Below are positions 5,319 to 35,108 of a stretch of 58,128 nucleotides of DNA, piece by piece. The notes beneath the pieces were generated by a model. It was given only the letters and a program-made list of their open reading frames with translations, had not been told where the DNA came from and searched no databases. Within the stretch, counting starts at the first letter, position 1; each line of letters starts with the position of its first letter. The DNA comes from Bacteroidota bacterium (GTDB lineage: Bacteria; Bacteroidota; Bacteroidia; Bacteroidales; B18-G4), in assembly GCA_013202965.1 (NCBI GenBank), contig JABMQZ010000137.1, forward strand, positions 1-58,128, read 5' to 3'. A program made the position numbers and the translations under genes.

Positions 5319-8114
5319 TTGTTCACCAACTTATTAACAAATTACCGGCTTATATATTGCCTCCTGATCCCGGGCTTGCTACTGTATGCCAGTATCACAA
5401 CAGCACAACAGGAAGATATCCTGTATGTTTCTGACAGCCTGTCCGGTGAACAAGTGATAAATCTTCCCGATACCATATTTACAAAACCGGATAGTTTACT
5501 TACTGCCGACAGCATAATTATTTTTGATACCATCGCTGCATCTGCCGAAGGACGGGTGATCAATATTGACAGCATTCCTGCCTGGAATGAAGACCAGCCA
5601 CCTGCAATCTCCCCCAGTGCCCTTACTTACCGGGTAGATTTTAACTCAGTGGATTCTCTGCGTTTTGACATGCATGAGCAAAAAGTTTACTTGTATCAGG
5701 AAGCGAAGATCGATTATGACGACATCAGCCTGAAGGCAAATTATGTGGAGATAGATTTTAATAAAACAGAGATATATGCCCAGGGGCTTCCCGATTCCAC
5801 AGGAAAAGAACGAGGCCAGCCGATCTTTATTCAGGGAGAATCGGAATTCCGTTCCCGGACCATGAGATATAATTATGATAGCAAGAAAGGACTGATCAAG
5901 GATGTGATCACACAGGATGGAGAAGCAACGATACGGGGGCAGGTAATCAAAAAGATGCCTAACAATGAGGCCCATATCAAGGGAGGTTCTTATTCGACAT
6001 GCCCAAGCTGCGAAAACCGCGATTATGAATTCAGGTACTTCAAATCTAAGGTAATCCCCGATAAACGAATCGTTACAGGCCCGGCATACCTTGTTATTGA
6101 GGAAGTTCCCACTCCATTGTTTCTGCCATTTGGGTTTTTCCCTATACGGAAAGGGCAGCATTCGGGAATCCTTCTTCCCACTTGGGGTGAATCAGCTGAG
6201 AGAGGCTTCTACTTTGAAAACGGGGGATATTACTGGGCAGTGAGTGACTACCTTGATTTTAAACTTGTGGGGGATATCTACACCAAGGGAAGCTGGGCCA
6301 TCAAACCATCAACCCGGTATAGGAAAAAATATAAATACAATGGGAATTTCGATTTTACCTATGCCATCAACATCATTGGGGAAGAAGGCCAGTCTAATTA
6401 TCGGCGCGACAGGGATTACCAGATCAGGTGGCGGCATCTGCAAGATCCCAAAGCAAGGCCAAACAGTTCGTTTACAGCAAACGTTAACATTCGGAGCCGT
6501 AAATCGAATTACTACAACCCTACCACTGCCCAGGATTATCTATCCAATACATTTCAGTCAAGTATTGCCTACCAGACCAGTTTTGCCGGTAAGTATTTCC
6601 TGACTGTTAATGCAAGTCACAGCCAGAATACACAAACAAAACTGATGACGCTCACATTGCCGGAACTATCTTTCAATGTAAACAGGTTTAACCCGTTTCG
6701 GAAAAAAAGCCGGTCCGGAAAAATGAAATGGTGGGAAGATATCAGTGTAAACTATACCGTTAATTTCAAAAATACCGTAATAATAGAAGATAGTCTGCTG
6801 TTCAAGCCGGAAACATGGAATAAGATGCAAAATGGCTTCAAACACAGCATCCCGATAAGCAGTTCCATAAAGTTGCTGAAGTATTTTACCTGGACAAACT
6901 CTATCAGGGTGAACGACAGGATGTACTTCAGTACCATTGAAAAAAACTGGGTGGATGATACACTTTTTATGAATAATGATACGATTGTGGGTTATGTAAA
7001 AGAAGATACTTTACGGGGATTCAAAAATGCCTTGGATGCCAGCTTTTCAACATCCATCAACACAAAAATTTATGGGATGTACCAGTTTGGGAAAAACTTT
7101 CCCATAAGGGCTATCAGGCATGTTATCACACCTAAAGTGGCTTTTACCTACACACCGGATTGGGGAGACCCGAAATGGGGCTATTATAAATCTTATTATG
7201 ATCCTAATCTGGATAGGGATGTTGAATATTCCATCTTTGAGGGTGGCATTTATGGTTCTCCTCCTAAAGATAAGTCGGGGAGGGTGTCCTTCTCGCTAAA
7301 CAATAACCTGGAGATGAAGGTTCGATCGAAAAGGGACACCATTACCGGCACCAAAAAGATCAAGCTGATCGATAATTTTGCGATCCAGACAACCTACGAC
7401 GTAGCCAAAGATTCCCTGAATTGGTCAAAATTGAAACTCAGTGGCCGGACTACTTTATTCAAAGGCTTTGATATAAGGTATTCGAGCAGCTGGGATCCGT
7501 ATATCCTGGATTCAACGGGAACTCGTAATATTAACAAATTTGAGTGGGACGTGAACAGGCGCCTGTTCAGGCTTGACCAGACCAACTGGAATTTTAGTGC
7601 TAACCTGAGGCTGAACCCTGATTTTTTCAAAAAGAAAGGCGAACAAACGAGTACAAGGAAGGATGAGGTGGAAGAGAGGATGGAAGAGATGGCGGGCGAC
7701 ATAGAAATGTCCGAGGAACTGGAAAGTATTTACAATAATTATGATGATTACATCGACTGGGACATCAAATGGAACCTGAATATCACATATAACCTGGTGT
7801 ATTCAACAACGCTTAAATATACCAATCAGGTGAATAAAGAGAAGCAGGAAAATTTGGTTCAAACTCTTGGACTGAGTGGGGATTTCAACGTTACGCCAAA
7901 ATGGAAAATCGGTTTCAGGACCGGATGGGATTTTGAAGCCGCTGAGCTTTCCTACACCTCCATCAACATTTATCGCGACCTGCATTGCTTCGAGATGCGC
8001 TTTAACTGGATCCCTATCGGTGGCAGACAATCATGGAACTTTGCCCTCAACGTGAAAGCAAGTATGCTGCAGGATCTCAAACTACAACGGAAAAAAGATT
8101 TCAGAGACTATTAA
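5319..8114 (+). CDS. LptD/OstA-like LPS-assembly outer-membrane protein
   Basis: 931 aa, signal peptide, OstA-like N-terminus (LKANYVEIDFNKTEIYAQG...) and long beta-barrel. TTG start as called. Confidence 0.85.
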   Translation: MFTNLLTNYRLIYCLLIPGLLLYASITTAQQEDILYVSDSLSGEQVINLPDTIFTKPDSLLTADSIIIFDTIAASAEGRVINIDSIPAWNEDQPPAISPSALTYRVDFNSVDSLRFDMHEQKVYLYQEAKIDYDDISLKANYVEIDFNKTEIYAQGLPDSTGKERGQPIFIQGESEFRSRTMRYNYDSKKGLIKDVITQDGEATIRGQVIKKMPNNEAHIKGGSYSTCPSCENRDYEFRYFKSKVIPDKRIVTGPAYLVIEEVPTPLFLPFGFFPIRKGQHSGILLPTWGESAERGFYFENGGYYWAVSDYLDFKLVGDIYTKGSWAIKPSTRYRKKYKYNGNFDFTYAINIIGEEGQSNYRRDRDYQIRWRHLQDPKARPNSSFTANVNIRSRKSNYYNPTTAQDYLSNTFQSSIAYQTSFAGKYFLTVNASHSQNTQTKLMTLTLPELSFNVNRFNPFRKKSRSGKMKWWEDISVNYTVNFKNTVIIEDSLLFKPETWNKMQNGFKHSIPISSSIKLLKYFTWTNSIRVNDRMYFSTIEKNWVDDTLFMNNDTIVGYVKEDTLRGFKNALDASFSTSINTKIYGMYQFGKNFPIRAIRHVITPKVAFTYTPDWGDPKWGYYKSYYDPNLDRDVEYSIFEGGIYGSPPKDKSGRVSFSLNNNLEMKVRSKRDTITGTKKIKLIDNFAIQTTYDVAKDSLNWSKLKLSGRTTLFKGFDIRYSSSWDPYILDSTGTRNINKFEWDVNRRLFRLDQTNWNFSANLRLNPDFFKKKGEQTSTRKDEVEERMEEMAGDIEMSEELESIYNNYDDYIDWDIKWNLNITYNLVYSTTLKYTNQVNKEKQENLVQTLGLSGDFNVTPKWKIGFRTGWDFEAAELSYTSINIYRDLHCFEMRFNWIPIGGRQSWNFALNVKASMLQDLKLQRKKDFRDY

Positions 8115-29371: not shown

Positions 29372-29776
29372 ATGAACACTTTTAAAAGGCTATCCCATAT
29401 TGCTTTTCTGCTTCTCATCTTCCTCCTGCTTTCCTGCCAGGGAAGTACCAACAGGGAATGGAGGGTAAATAACGCTTCTTCCACTACTATACAGGTCAGG
29501 GCAGTCCTGGTTTTAGGTACAGATAGCATATATGAAAGCATTGAAACGGGAGAGACCAGGATCATCATCATCACAAGCGAGCCCAGGGCCAACTCAGATC
29601 CCCAGCAAGCATATGAAGTATTCTCTAGTTTTCTGGTTACCAACGCCAATGGCGATACGATTGAGAAGGATTTCACAAATAACGATAACTGGGAAATTTA
29701 TATTGAACATACCAAGCACCGGCCCGATCACTTTGACCTAACATACACCCTGATAGTTAAGGATGAGGATTTTTAA
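29372..29776 (+). CDS. Hypothetical lipoprotein
   Basis: Signal peptide with lipobox LLLSC; 134 aa; no family recognised. Confidence 0.6.
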   Translation: MNTFKRLSHIAFLLLIFLLLSCQGSTNREWRVNNASSTTIQVRAVLVLGTDSIYESIETGETRIIIITSEPRANSDPQQAYEVFSSFLVTNANGDTIEKDFTNNDNWEIYIEHTKHRPDHFDLTYTLIVKDEDF

Positions 29777-29822
29777 TTTCCGCTTGCCGTTAACCATTAA
29801 GCCTTCGCCAATTTAATAGAAA

Positions 29823-29858
29823 ACGGATAACACGGATGTGACGGATTAGCACGGATTA
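29823..29858. repeat. Tandem ACGGAT repeat, 9-10 nt period
   Basis: ACGGATAAC ACGGATGTG ACGGATTAGC ACGGAT. Confidence 0.8.
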
Positions 29859-30084
29859 TGAATGGTGGGATATGATTGCTGGGTTTGAGTGTGTTTTTTA
29901 ACACAAAGTACCACGAAGTATTGTCCAAAGGAACCACAAAGAAAGATACTGAGTGGCCTTTGTAGTTAAAGAAAATTCCGAACTTCTCAATCACAATTCT
30001 CCACTACCAATCTTTGCTAATAATTATTCACCAGGATTTCATCATTCATCAAAGCTAAATATATTTCTTGAAAAAAATCAATAA

Positions 30085-30103
30085 GTTCGGATTATTTCCG
30101 AAC
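30085..30103. promoter_or_regulatory. Candidate operator of the toxin-antitoxin operon
   Basis: Perfect inverted repeat GTTCGGA-TTATT-TCCGAAC just upstream of the toxin gene, with a TAnnTTTG-type -7 element (TATGTTTG) at 30111-30118. Confidence 0.6.
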
Positions 30104-30125
30104 AATATTGTATGTTTGCAGTATA

Positions 30126-30404
30126 ATGAGATTGATTCGTAAGAATATATTAGAAAAAACTAAGCGAAAGAACAGGGGAAATATTCCTTTATCGAAAGCG
30201 ATTAATTCGCTTATTAAGGACATTGAAGAGAATAATTGGAGTAGCGCAAGTGAATTATTAAAAGTGAGGAAGGATGCAGATAAGGTGCACAGTGAGGGGG
30301 TTTACTTTTTCAACCTCAATGTACATCGGACGATGATAATGATTGAATTTGATGAAAGGGAAGCGAGTGTTGTTTGGATTGGAACGCATCAGGAATACGA
30401 TTAG
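30126..30404 (+). CDS. HigB-like type II toxin (RelE-superfamily mRNA interferase)
   Basis: YFFNLNVHRTMIMIEFDEREASVVWIGTHQEYD matches the C-terminal pattern of HigB_toxin; followed by an HTH antitoxin. Confidence 0.8.
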   Translation: MRLIRKNILEKTKRKNRGNIPLSKAINSLIKDIEENNWSSASELLKVRKDADKVHSEGVYFFNLNVHRTMIMIEFDEREASVVWIGTHQEYD

Positions 30405-30470
30405 GTTTTTAAGAATAATAAAAATACGATCAGGAAATGGTTAAGAGCAAATGAATGGATATAGGAAGAT

Positions 30471-31031
30471 ATGAAAACACAATTTGATGTAAACGAAATT
30501 ATTAAGAGTGGAAAGATTGGGAATGAGCTTGATTACGAAAGAGCTTTAATTGCCGACAGGAAGTTAAGGGTCCTTGCAAAAGATGGTCCGATGAAGAAAT
30601 CTTTGCGGAAAAAGTTAAGGGATATTATTGAGGCATATGAGCGCGAAAATTGGTCAGGACAAACCAGGATCAGTAAGAAAAAACTAAGAGAAAGTGATAT
30701 AGCTGAAGCTATAGCTGAAAAAGAGCGTTTATTTATTGAAAGAAGAAGAGAATTGATCCGTGATAAACTTAAAAAACACAATCTTACCCAGCAGGATCTT
30801 GGTGCTATCTTAGGGCATAAGAGCAAAACCTATATGTCTGAATTAATGAATGGTATCAGCCCGTTTTCATTAAAAGATCTTGTAATAATCAGCAGATTAT
30901 TCGGGCTGGATTTAACAGGCCTGATACCTACATTCTTGCCTCAAAAAGAACGATTAAAGATTAAACGCGTAATAGAAAGATTACATAATCCTGAACTTAA
31001 GCTAAGCCAGGATGATTTTGTATTGGCATAA
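30471..31031 (+). CDS. HigA-like antitoxin with XRE-type HTH
   Basis: IRDKLKKHNLTQQDLGAILGHKSKTYMSELMNGISPFSLKDLVIISRLFGLDLTGLIP; long N-terminal extension. Confidence 0.78.
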   Translation: MKTQFDVNEIIKSGKIGNELDYERALIADRKLRVLAKDGPMKKSLRKKLRDIIEAYERENWSGQTRISKKKLRESDIAEAIAEKERLFIERRRELIRDKLKKHNLTQQDLGAILGHKSKTYMSELMNGISPFSLKDLVIISRLFGLDLTGLIPTFLPQKERLKIKRVIERLHNPELKLSQDDFVLA

Positions 31032-31056
31032 CTTTGCATGATTGGTTTCTGATTAA

Positions 31057-31953
31057 TTACGATGCATCCAAAAACTCCCGATACCGTTGATCAAGCTTAT
31101 CACGGTCAGGGTGATCGATTGTGCGATTTGGGAGAATGATTTTGTTGTTTTCCAAAGACTGAAGCCCGTATTTTAGCATTGGGCCATCAATTTCTTGCAG
31201 AATGTCTTCTCTGATCTTAATCGTATAATCAGGTGTAATCCCTAAAATGTGCTTGTCGAACGCTGCATGGTGGATTTTGCACAGTGAAAGACCATTTGAG
31301 ACAATCGGTTCACCGCCTTCTTTGCTATCTGGAATAATATGAGCTGCATCAAGTAATTCGACATGTTTTAGGCGGCATAGAGCACATTGGCTTCTATAAG
31401 CGCGCAGAATCTTTTCCCGAAATGACCTCTGATGCACCCTTTGCTTTACACTAACGGTTAAATAAGATCGTCTGGAATTGTCCTCAGTTTCATCTGCAAC
31501 AAAGTTTTCTTTCCGCTCCTGAATATACTCCATTTCGTCTTTCGCAACTAGGAAACTTAGATTCTCCTGGTTTTCATTGATAATGAAAATAGGCCAAACT
31601 GCTAGGTATTTTCCTTCAACTACTCTATATAAATATACCAGAGGAATCTGCCTTTTCCACATTTCACGAAGCCTTGTATTTACTGGATGATTGGGATTTG
31701 TCCCCATATACTTGTAATTCAAAAAACCATCTTTTGTAAAAGAATCAGCATAAGGGCCATCTGGAATTGAGGTTATTGAAATGGGTAACTCCATGGCTTG
31801 AGGTTTCCAGATACCTTGTGGCCCCAGAAAGGAGATTCTATTTCCTTGATATATGAAGCCTTCTCTAAGTATGCGATAGTCTAGAACATCGCCAAAAATT
31901 TCTGTTTTTTCTTTAAGCCATTTAAATGCGGCTGCTCTGATTGCATCATCCAT
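31057..31953 (-). CDS. HNH endonuclease with PUA/SRA-like N-terminal region (predicted restriction endonuclease, COG3440-like)
   Basis: C-terminal CALCRLKHVELLDAAHIIPDSKEGGEPIVSNGLSLCKIHHAAFDKHILGI; N-terminal FLGPQGIWKPQAMELPISIT. Confidence 0.82.
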   Translation of the reverse strand: MDDAIRAAAFKWLKEKTEIFGDVLDYRILREGFIYQGNRISFLGPQGIWKPQAMELPISITSIPDGPYADSFTKDGFLNYKYMGTNPNHPVNTRLREMWKRQIPLVYLYRVVEGKYLAVWPIFIINENQENLSFLVAKDEMEYIQERKENFVADETEDNSRRSYLTVSVKQRVHQRSFREKILRAYRSQCALCRLKHVELLDAAHIIPDSKEGGEPIVSNGLSLCKIHHAAFDKHILGITPDYTIKIREDILQEIDGPMLKYGLQSLENNKIILPNRTIDHPDRDKLDQRYREFLDAS

Positions 31954-31954
31954 A

Positions 31955-32929
31955 TCAGTAATTCATTTTATTAGGAATAACTCCTCGTACTCCCCCCCTG
32001 GGATTATCTACATCTCCTTTTCGCCTTGGAATCAGATGGAAGTGAAGATGATCAATAGTTTGCCCAGCGACTTCTCCATTATTAAGCCCGATATTAAAAC
32101 CATCAATAGTTTTGTCTTCTTCTTGTAGTGATCTTTCAATAAACTTGATGAGGTCATGGCATGCAACCAATTCATATTGACTGAGTTCAAAATAGTTAGT
32201 AACATGCCTTCTTGGGATAACAAGCGTATGCCCAGCTGTTACTGGATGCTTATCCAGAATGGCAAATGCAAGTTCGTTTTCGTGAAGGACTTTTTCAGTC
32301 TTATGCACTATGCAAAATGGGCAGTCATTATTGAAACTATCTTTAATTAGATTTCTAAAATCAGTTTTGTCCTTGTTCCTTTTTGATCTATTACACTTGG
32401 AACAAAGCACCTGCAAGTTTGCATACTCAGTTTTTCCGCCCAGTGAGCGAGGTAAGATATGATCTACATCAAGAACACGCTCATTTCTTGTAGCGCCGCA
32501 TAGTGCACATCTGCCTTTTGATTCTTTCAGTACAATAAATCTCAAGGAGTCAGGAACAGGTTCTGTATCAATTAAACGATAATCCCAAACTGACAAGCCT
32601 CGTTTTGAAATATAATCCTGTATCTTTCCTTCACAGATCTTTTTCAACTCAGCTTTTTGCTCAAATGTTAGCTTACTGACTTCCAAAGTGACTAAATCGC
32701 CATCTTTTTTAATGATTCCATGTTTCGAGAGTACTTTAATAGGCATGCTCTTCAAAGTGCTTTCGTAGTACCTGATTTGACTTTCATCATAACCAAGAAA
32801 ACATAAAGCCAATTGCCTTACAGTCGCAGATCCACCGGAATCAACCAATATCTTTATCAGCAAAGGCTGATAGATATGGCTCATGCGCATTTTCTTTTCA
32901 ATAAAGCTCCTTAGGTCCTCATATTTCAT
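31955..32929 (-). CDS. wHTH-HNH nuclease-HIT hydrolase fusion protein
   Basis: CALCGATRNERVLDVDHILPRSLGGKTEYANLQVLCSKCNRSK (HNH), then CPFCIVH...HTLVIPRRHV...HLHFHLIP (HIT triad). The N-terminal ~100 aa look like a winged helix. Confidence 0.87.
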   Translation of the reverse strand: MKYEDLRSFIEKKMRMSHIYQPLLIKILVDSGGSATVRQLALCFLGYDESQIRYYESTLKSMPIKVLSKHGIIKKDGDLVTLEVSKLTFEQKAELKKICEGKIQDYISKRGLSVWDYRLIDTEPVPDSLRFIVLKESKGRCALCGATRNERVLDVDHILPRSLGGKTEYANLQVLCSKCNRSKRNKDKTDFRNLIKDSFNNDCPFCIVHKTEKVLHENELAFAILDKHPVTAGHTLVIPRRHVTNYFELSQYELVACHDLIKFIERSLQEEDKTIDGFNIGLNNGEVAGQTIDHLHFHLIPRRKGDVDNPRGGVRGVIPNKMNY

Positions 32930-33012
32930 AATGGAAGCGATCTAAAGAATATTTACTCTGCAGAATTCTTTTGGTTTTTTAAAGTTTCTCCTTCAAATAT
33001 ATAAAAATATTA

Positions 33013-33066
33013 GATAAATTCGAGTTTTTAAGATCGCAATTTGCGTCCTCAAGATGTATCAGATAA
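33013..33066 (+). pseudogene. Remnant of an ORF6N-domain gene
   Basis: Translates as DKFEFLRSQFASSRCIR*; matches DNLRSQFATSSWGGIR of the intact gene at 33386 and shares its palindromic DNA core. Confidence 0.65.
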
Positions 33067-33120
33067 GAATATGACCTTTGTATTTTCTTTGTGAAACCCT
33101 TCGTGGTTAAGATAAATTCG

Positions 33121-33148
33121 AATATCAAATATCAAATGTCGGATATCG
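33121..33148. repeat. Heptamer array AATATCA/AATATCA/AATGTCG/GATATCG
   Basis: Four 7-nt units in register. Confidence 0.8.
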
Positions 33149-33159
33149 AATTTCCTCGT

Positions 33160-33275
33160 CGTCTATATTCCACACCATTCAACTCAATCCAAAACGCCTG
33201 CTTACCAGCTTCCACCTTTACAATCCCACCCTCAAAAATCACCCAGCTTTTTCATGCTTCGCCGGGATGGCGAGT
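33160..33275 (-). pseudogene. Remnant of the 3' end of a WG-repeat gene
   Basis: Reverse strand encodes IPAKHEKAG, a 1-nt deletion, then IFEGGIVKVEAGKQAFWIELNGVEYRR, versus IPAKYEKAGHIFEGGIVQVEVNGQAFWIDLNGFEYRR* in the intact gene. Confidence 0.88.
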
Positions 33276-33385
33276 TCATTAAATCTCCCTGTAAGAAGTG
33301 GAACAAAACGTGATTATGAGTATTAATAGGTAAGGAGTGAGGTTTTTCTGATAATTTTATAATGTAAAACATCTAAACTATATCT

Positions 33386-33895
33386 ATGAAAAATTCGATC
33401 ATTAAATCTGATTATCAAACATTAATATATACATTGCGGGGGTATAAAGTAATGCTGGACTTCGATCTGGCAATACTTTATGGGGTTGAAACAAAAAGAC
33501 TGAAAGAACAAGTTCGGCGGAATATCACAAGGTTCCCGAAGGATTTTATGTTTGTGCTTAACAAAGATGAGATTGATAACTTGAGGTCGCAATTTGCGAC
33601 CTCAAGTTGGGGAGGTATAAGATATGCACCTATGGCATTTACCGAACAGGGTGTTGCAATGCTATCATCTGTTCTGAATTCTGAAAAGGCAATTAAGATA
33701 AATATTGAGATCATGCGGGCTTTTGCAGATTATCGGGCATTAATAATCAGGAATAAAGATTTTGGGAAGGAGCTTCAGTTGCTGGATGAAAAGATCAATC
33801 AAATTTTCAAATTCTTATTGGAAAAAATCGATGCATTAAGGGGTCAGCAGTTGGATGAATCACGCAACAAAATCGGGTATAAAAAAAGTGAATAA
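33386..33895 (+). CDS. ORF6N domain-containing protein
   Basis: LRGYKVMLDFDLAILYGVETKRLKEQVRRNITRFPKDFMFVLNKDE...FTEQGVAMLSSVLNS. Confidence 0.93.
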   Translation: MKNSIIKSDYQTLIYTLRGYKVMLDFDLAILYGVETKRLKEQVRRNITRFPKDFMFVLNKDEIDNLRSQFATSSWGGIRYAPMAFTEQGVAMLSSVLNSEKAIKINIEIMRAFADYRALIIRNKDFGKELQLLDEKINQIFKFLLEKIDALRGQQLDESRNKIGYKKSE

Positions 33896-33944
33896 GCTCG
33901 AATTGTTCGGTCTTCGGTGCTCGTTTTTATTGTTCGTTCTTCAA

Positions 33945-35108
33945 CTACCTCCTGTATTCAAATCCATTCAAGTCAATCCAAAATGCCTGCCCATTAACCT
34001 CCACCTGCACAATCCCACCCTCAAAAATATGCCCCGCCTTCTCGTATTTCGCCGGGATGACAATATTTCCGGAAGGATCGATATAGCCGCTGAGGCCGTT
34101 TTCCTTATACAGTGCCCGGCCTTCGTGGAAGTTTGAGACGTACTCAAAAGTGCAGGGGATCATGAGCTTGCCGCGGTCATCGATGAAGCCGTATTTTCCG
34201 TTCATCATGACCCGGGCCAGGCCTTCGTGGAAATGGTTGGCAGATTCGTATTCAAAGCGGGTCATCTCGTAACCATAAGGATCGATATAGCCCCACAGAC
34301 CGTCTTTTTTCACCGGAAACATCTCATGTAAGGAGGCGGAGATACTTTCATATTCCACCGGGATCACCATCTCATTCTCTGCATTGATATAGCCCCACAA
34401 CTCACCCAGCTGTACCCCGGCAATGCCGTTGGCAAACATCAGGGCATTGTCATATTCCGTGGGGATCACCAGCTTGCCGTCCTTGTTGATGAAGCCAAAC
34501 TTCTCCCGTACCTTAACGAAGGCATAGCCTTCGTGGAAGCTGCCGGCATATTCATATATGGGCCGCACGATCACCTCCCCTTCGCGATTTACAAAACCAT
34601 ACCTGCCCTTCTGGCCAACTTTCGCCATGCCATTGCTGAAGACATTCGTTTCGACAAATTTATAGGGTACCACCATGCGACCTGCCTTGTCGATGTAGCC
34701 AAAAAGACGTGATTGTTTCACATAGGCCATGCCTTCATAGAAGTCCGAGCTCAGGGAATATTGTGCGGAAATAACCCGAATGCCCCGGCTGTTATAAAAT
34801 CCGTCTTTTCCTGCATTGCTGTAGCGGATCATGCCTTCACGCCATTCGCCCATGCTTTCAAGGGTAATGGGCACCATGATGCGGCCGTCTTCATCGATGA
34901 GGCCGTAAAAGCCGTTCTTTTTTACTTTGGCTGCCCCATCCACAAATGTGCTTACCTCATCATATACCGCAGGGATGACCAGCTCAGCATTGGCATCGGC
35001 ATAACCGTACTTTTCGCCATCGAGGAAAGGGATACGCCTGGGGAGTTCCTGGGCGCTTAGATAAACAGACATCAGAAAGATCAAGCTTATAGAGAGGAAT
35101 GTTTTCAT
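33945..35108 (-). CDS. WG-repeat (KWG) containing secreted protein
   Basis: Repeated YGFIDDRGKLMIP/WGYINAENEMVIP units; start moved to MKTFLSISLIFLMS at 35108. Confidence 0.93.
   Translation of the reverse strand: MKTFLSISLIFLMSVYLSAQELPRRIPFLDGEKYGYADANAELVIPAVYDEVSTFVDGAAKVKKNGFYGLIDEDGRIMVPITLESMGEWREGMIRYSNAGKDGFYNSRGIRVISAQYSLSSDFYEGMAYVKQSRLFGYIDKAGRMVVPYKFVETNVFSNGMAKVGQKGRYGFVNREGEVIVRPIYEYAGSFHEGYAFVKVREKFGFINKDGKLVIPTEYDNALMFANGIAGVQLGELWGYINAENEMVIPVEYESISASLHEMFPVKKDGLWGYIDPYGYEMTRFEYESANHFHEGLARVMMNGKYGFIDDRGKLMIPCTFEYVSNFHEGRALYKENGLSGYIDPSGNIVIPAKYEKAGHIFEGGIVQVEVNGQAFWIDLNGFEYRR

Follow-up and report, generated by a model that had tools for sequence, protein, structure and literature searches.

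The known enzymes in which a winged helix or a PUA domain is joined to an HNH nuclease domain are modification-dependent and are classed as type IV restriction enzymes (PMC11037411, PMC10101028, PMC7897488). Of the enzymes characterised so far they are the closest to the proteins of the present locus, and they usually occur by themselves, with no methyltransferase beside them (PMC11037411, PMC10101028). VcaM4I is a modification-dependent enzyme of the EVE-HNH type (PMC7897488).

The locus analysed here is in a 58,128 nucleotide stretch of a Bacteroidota bacterium genome (GenBank assembly GCA_013202965.1, contig JABMQZ010000137.1, positions 1 to 58,128, forward strand), referred to below as the window. 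It includes two adjacent genes for HNH proteins, the first of which also carries a HIT domain. The known place of HIT enzymes in defence is, to our knowledge, mainly that of a minor Thoeris accessory with an unproven role. The features of the locus are as follows.

32929..31955, minus strand: gene 1, ORF of 324 aa with an ATG start
Gene 1 domains, in order: winged helix (aa ~1-85), helical linker, HNH (aa 141-192), HIT (aa ~200-307) and clade tail RGGVRGVIPNKMNY (aa 311-324)
31953..31957, minus strand: gene 1/gene 2 junction, TGA (31957-31955), one base (T, 31954), ATG (31953)
31953..31057, minus strand: gene 2, ORF of 298 aa with an ATG start
Gene 2 domains, minus strand: N-terminal domain (aa 1-~155) and HNH_2 (aa 190-239)
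~29500..34000, no strand: AT-rich island, supported by GC and flank synteny, containing the operon, a convergent toxin-antitoxin-like pair and an ORF6N gene
30108-30404 and 30471-31031, both plus strand: toxin-antitoxin-like pair, HigB_toxin (4.2e-15) and HTH_3 protein
33386-33895, plus strand: ORF6N-domain protein

The two ORFs and the single base between the TGA and the ATG had been reported in the initial annotation, and are borne out by the ORF calls and the sequence. From the TGA-T-ATG junction, translational coupling of gene 1 to gene 2 is probable. The initial annotation also predicted a winged helix, an intact HNH and a complete HIT domain in gene 1, and all three were recovered. Pfam matches gene 1 to HIT (5.9e-21, aa 211-304), and to HNH_5 (1.3e-13) and HNH (2.3e-11) over aa 141-192. 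Relatives of gene 1 from Bacteroidota, Neomarinimicrobiota, Thaumarchaeota and Pseudomonadota, with 44-70 % identity, were compared; six aligned sequences from these four phyla show no variation in the HNH motif (DVDHI...N...LCxxCN, with two CxxC pairs) or in the HIT triad H294/H296/H298. The HIT superfamily feature, an HxHxH triad in a HIT fold, was found in gene 1 by Pfam, by conservation and by Foldseek, which matched the domain to the HIT structures 1y23 and 3o0m at ~5e-8, and the end of the HIT carries PRRKGDVDNPRGGVRGVIPNKMNY. HNH superfamily features (a beta-beta-alpha metal motif with catalytic His and Asn) were found in both genes by Pfam, with key residues invariant; the zinc-binding CxxC pairs are invariant in gene 1 but not across the wider family of gene 2. 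In the AlphaFold2 model of gene 1, residues 3-82 are mostly of high confidence (block pLDDT 62-92) and are arranged in the order H-H-E-H-H-H-E-E, which supports a predicted winged helix in the N-terminal ~85 residues.

The HIT domain of gene 1 is similar to general enzymes of the Fhit/Ap4A and HinT types, and an analogy with aprataxin, drawn in the initial annotation, gained no specific support. Membership of the aprataxin type, in which the HIT is followed by a C-terminal DNA-binding zinc finger, is not supported, as Pfam detected no zinc finger outside the HNH and aprataxin was absent among the PDB matches listed. An m6A-sensing winged helix was also considered and rejected: when the gene 1 profile was compared with HHPV4I using hhalign, only the HNH aligned, so that m6A sensing by this winged helix is not implied.

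For gene 2, a second HNH had been predicted and was confirmed (Pfam HNH_2, 5.7e-10), whereas the PUA/SRA-like N-terminus predicted with it was not. This N-terminus (~150 aa) matched no Pfam family in any of eight relatives, and the PDB profile search and profile comparisons (HHPV4I, the VcaM4I homologue and the SBD group) gave no assignment. It did not align with the EVE domain of the VcaM4I homologue in hhalign, and the structure model of gene 2 (AlphaFold2, mean pLDDT 38.6) was unusable. The C-terminal region of gene 2 is common to PT-DNA-binding and m6A-dependent HNH enzymes. HHPV4I (6.6e-17) and the SBD-like HNH group (2e-20) align in hhalign with the HNH half only, and the match to NF045808 (2.4e-19 over aa 150-285) scores 69.6 bits, compared with a curated cut-off of 180 bits. 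Relatives of gene 2 are often located beside restriction or defence genes, including annotated hsdR/hsdM genes at one locus, and further neighbours, identified by reading the sequence only, are SBD-like HNH, Mrr-like, SIR2-like and PLD/ATPase genes.

Within the ~4-kb island (about 29.5-34 kb), GC content falls to 0.34-0.40, compared with 0.45-0.49 outside it, and the island and the operon that it bears were therefore probably acquired. The right flank of the island (mevalonate kinase, SDR and WG genes) retains synteny in a genome from the same genus, the contig of which stops within the WG-repeat gene. As the initial annotation had noted, a methyltransferase is not adjacent; a scan of the genes on either side of the operon (30.1-35.2 kb; ORFs, Pfam) detected none. 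The toxin-antitoxin-like pair is convergent to gene 2 and ends ~25 bp from the gene 2 stop, and its HigB_toxin protein is also like PADLOC PD-Lambda-2_A (5e-9). The ORF6N-domain protein is a strong PADLOC match to the phage-defence candidate PDC-S05 (1.4e-53). Beyond the ORF6N gene, the 3' end of the WG-repeat gene is repeated over ~108 bp at 79 % identity (33163-33269 versus 33952-34059). The ORF6N gene is thus flanked by two diverged direct copies, possibly the trace of an insertion or duplication.

Full-length winged-helix-HNH-HIT genes were present in 14 other genomes from four phyla, and these were used to examine how often the two genes occur together. Gene 2 adjoins gene 1 in one of the 14, a Neomarinimicrobiota bacterium (L004), where the order is as in the window, the gap is 7 bp, and the identities are 59 % (gene 1) and 50 % (gene 2). 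Gene 2 is absent from the whole assembly in seven of the remaining genomes, and absent at the locus in the others. Among 13 gene-2 loci inspected outside the window, gene 1 adjoins gene 2 in one. The pairing therefore recurs, once, in another phylum, but is rare from either side. Rare co-occurrence had been named beforehand as an outcome that would count against a specific two-gene system, and the case for such a system is weak. An obligate two-gene system is ruled out by these counts, and the partnership is optional.

Gene 2 was found at E <= 1e-40 in 5/299 Bacteroidota (including the genome of the window) and 2/299 Pseudomonadota. Gene 1 was found in 2/397 other Bacteroidota and 5/299 Pseudomonadota (including the seed). 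Because gene 2 is rare, even a single independent adjacency is far beyond chance (about 3e-4, a rough estimate). Gene 1 frequently stands by itself, as it does in Thaumarchaeota (L005 and L006), and its patchy distribution fits horizontal spread. The adjacency of genes 1 and 2 could instead reflect incidental stacking in a defence island of independent, solitary enzymes, with the HIT as the sole functional partner of the gene 1 HNH. This would account for the 13 of 14 other genomes where gene 2 does not adjoin gene 1, the 12 of 13 other gene-2 loci where gene 1 is missing, and the closest relative of gene 1 (L003, 69 %), which is not accompanied by gene 2. However, the order and tight spacing recur in L004, and gene 2, present in about 2 % of genomes, is very unlikely to be a neighbour there by chance; we regard incidental stacking as improbable.

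The conserved unit is an HNH nuclease together with a HIT of one clade, and not the specific gene 1-gene 2 pair. When 398 Bacteroidota genomes were searched, the same HIT was found outside the winged-helix-HNH fusion in 26 further genomes, and 25 of these loci were readable. An HNH gene on the same strand directly adjoins the non-fused HIT gene in 20/25, with gaps that are mostly -4 to +5 bp, such that the gene ends overlap or abut. Pfam confirmed the HNH in all 20 partners (16 HNH_4 and 4 HNH_2). In the control, an HNH gene was found beside an ordinary HIT gene in 0/28 loci from the same phylum, using for detection a profile of the 20 HNH partners with genes 1 and 2, which other HNH types could escape. 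A methyltransferase-like domain is fused N-terminally in 15 of the 20 HNH-paired HITs, and in the one representative scanned, 76 residues of this domain match TIGR04096 (DNA phosphorothioation-associated putative methyltransferase) at 2e-14, which falls short of the cut-off. The HNH/HIT pair is also found on plasmids of Hymenobacter, Persicobacter, Polaromonas and Aromatoleum, in both gene orders, and the same HIT is fused to the winged-helix-HNH in the 14 other genomes already described.

In a tree of 80 HIT domains, this clade is apart from 27 of the 28 controls; one control with a very long branch falls inside it, and the branch dividing off the clade is weakly supported (54/93). The methyltransferase-HIT fusions form one clade (96/94). 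The tail signature of the clade is RGGVRxVIPxKxxY, and its GG[VI]R portion is shared by 49 of the 51 clade members and by none of the 28 controls. Some members, L017 and L031, adjoin non-nuclease genes, and the clade is therefore not exclusive to restriction. Further settings of the HIT were noted. In a Pseudomonadota locus (L070:2367-5945), a restriction-type PLD-DEAD helicase protein of 1192 aa begins with a HIT of the same clade. In two Neomarinimicrobiota loci (L084:2253-3380 and L085:4656-5798), solo clade HIT genes follow a gene for a DnaQ-like 3'-5' exonuclease (RNase_T, 1.4e-5, in L084), another nuclease partner. Phage-borne relatives were sampled through annotated phage records, and in Streptomyces phage phiSASD1 (L118:3129-4456) the HIT gene directly follows a PAPS-reductase-family gene, a possible link to DNA sulfur modification.

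The winged-helix-HNH portion of gene 1 is not always joined to a HIT. Two Bacteroidota genomes (L021:1210-2112 and L025:1501-2409) have this chassis with a different C-terminus in place of the HIT, and that of L021 is 38-43 % identical, over nearly the full length, to plasmid proteins annotated as nucleoside triphosphate pyrophosphohydrolase. That one chassis is joined to two unrelated nucleotide hydrolases argues that the nuclease needs nucleotide hydrolysis, and not one DNA-end chemistry.

Relatives of gene 1 are found in several restriction and mobile settings. At L064, a gene-1 homologue is 20 bp downstream of a full-length VcaM4I homologue (3.7e-92), and the contig also carries an integrase-like gene (sequence reading). 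The initial annotation had proposed that a modification-sensing partner acts with gene 1; at L064 the layout is comparable and the reader is of a proven type, but gene 2 is not the obligate partner. Elsewhere, a gene-1 relative is back to back with genes for a ResIII/DEAD helicase and an AAA_23 protein and a DUF262-like gene (L067), or adjoins HsdM- and DUF262-like genes (L008, sequence reading). One genome has two copies (L065/L066), which adjoin a ParB-like/DNA-methylase gene; the prophage in which they lie also has a GpA terminase. In a Methylococcaceae locus (L007:4855-7060), the gene and that for an integron integrase (TIGR02249, 443 bits versus a cut-off of 265) point away from each other, and the motifs GTTAGGT (5977) and ACCTAAC (6990) mark the two boundaries of the former. 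The 73 bases at 6988-7060 are attC-like, in that the bottom strand folds better (z -2.3) than the top strand (z -0.7). Given the integrase, the boundary motifs and the bottom-strand fold, this winged-helix-HNH-HIT gene is probably a (first) integron gene cassette.

For the operon in the window, the reading that we prefer, and hold at about even chances, is of a small operon that moves horizontally and encodes HNH restriction of a type IV-like, modification-dependent kind, together with a nucleotide hydrolase as an accessory. Gene 2 would be an orphan restriction-type HNH nuclease, the N-terminal domain of which probably reads a DNA feature. Gene 1, which has the architecture of a winged-helix-guided HNH nuclease, would have its HIT hydrolase acting in cis, consistent with the intact active-site residues. 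The winged helix of gene 1 and the N-terminus of gene 2 may select the DNA, and both HNH proteins would cut when foreign DNA enters. From general HIT chemistry, the HIT would hydrolyse a nucleotide or a nucleotide adduct, and this may either remove an inhibitory or pro-repair nucleotide or gate the nuclease by nucleotide state. The modification-reading partner would be exchangeable, the HNH and the clade HIT being the constant part. The role of the HIT is the weakest step of this mechanism, and we favour action on a small nucleotide over action on DNA-5'-AMP because an NTP pyrophosphohydrolase takes the place of the HIT on this chassis in other genomes.

A broader proposal, which we put forward tentatively and with somewhat less confidence, is that 'HNH-HIT' is an undescribed, widespread and coherent restriction-type class. 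The clade HIT would be an accessory shared by many unrelated HNH (and PLD-helicase) nucleases, fused to them or in tight operons, and carried on plasmids, prophages and integrons, with the nuclease gated or potentiated by nucleotide hydrolysis.

Alternatively, the HNH may break invader DNA and the HIT, acting like aprataxin, may strip 5'-AMP from ligase intermediates, such that neither phage nor host ligase can reseal the ends. The ties of the clade HIT to several kinds of DNA-cutting proteins, and its fusion, with the triad intact, to a probable DNA-binding winged helix, are consistent with this. We nevertheless think it unlikely, as aprataxin did not appear among the PDB matches listed and the pyrophosphohydrolase, which is the alternative partner of the chassis, is not expected to act on DNA-5'-AMP. 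It is very doubtful that the HIT works with DNA phosphorothioation or its restriction (e.g. on adenylylated intermediates) and that gene 2 is a PT-reading HNH, since gene 2 matches NF045808 in the HNH half only and every score is below the curated cut-offs, despite the TIGR04096 resemblance of the methyltransferase-HIT fusion, the HNH partners in L029 and L036, which are similar over nearly their full length to the PT-DNA-binding restriction enzyme of NF045808, and the PAPS-reductase-family gene adjoining the phage HIT gene.

None of the parts of the preferred operon model (HNH, HIT, winged helix) is new, nor is type IV restriction as a kind of system, but the HNH-HIT combination is undescribed in the open-access papers searched. 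No description of an HNH-HIT module or system, of a HIT with restriction, or of DUF3427 with a HIT was found in these papers, subscription papers and preprints being outside the scope of the search. The partnership of an HNH with a nucleotide enzyme recurs across distant bacteria and archaea. The clade HIT is consistently tied to restriction-type HNH proteins and is swapped for an NTP pyrophosphohydrolase, which points to an unstudied nucleotide-processing step in restriction. The RGGVRxVIPxKxxY tail can serve as a sequence signature in searches for further systems of this kind and, as gene 1 is small (324 aa), the idea is directly testable on one gene.

The initial annotation knew of no characterised system with this pair, and no match to a known named system was found. 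Membership of Thoeris, Septu or retron systems was rejected, as the partner genes are absent at the locus. Among the matched PADLOC families, HIT is represented solely by ThsC of Thoeris type II (PMC8565338), which is the best PADLOC match for the gene 1 HIT (1.5e-12). However, neither ThsA nor TIR is found among the scanned neighbours of gene 1, and a TIR-adjacent HIT (L014) is without the clade tail motif and falls outside the clade in the HIT tree. The HNH proteins of Septu (PtuB) and retrons have a similar HNH domain (PtuB match, 1.7e-10), but PtuB is without a HIT and the PtuA ATPase gene is absent among the scanned flanking genes. The SBD-HNH phosphorothioate-DNA restriction enzymes (NF045808) look like four of the Bacteroidota HNH partners of HIT genes and have the HNH half in common with gene 2, which differs in not having the PHKPxLLL N-terminal region and in scoring far below the family cut-off. 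The m6A-dependent type IV enzymes of the HHPV4I group have, like gene 1, a winged helix and an HNH in one chain, and are mostly stand-alone with no adjacent methyltransferase, as here, and the HNH of HHPV4I aligns with that of gene 2. However, gene 1 differs in its winged helix, which has no detectable homology to that of HHPV4I, in its HNH, which belongs to the HNH_5/IscB-like sort, and in its C-terminal HIT, a term not found by searching PMC11037411 and PMC10101028. With VcaM4I, for which no HIT partner is mentioned (PMC7897488) and the EVE domain of which does not align with the N-terminus of gene 2, gene 2 nonetheless shares a similar plan (an N-terminal domain followed by HNH_2), and at L064 it is a VcaM4I homologue that precedes the homologue of gene 1.
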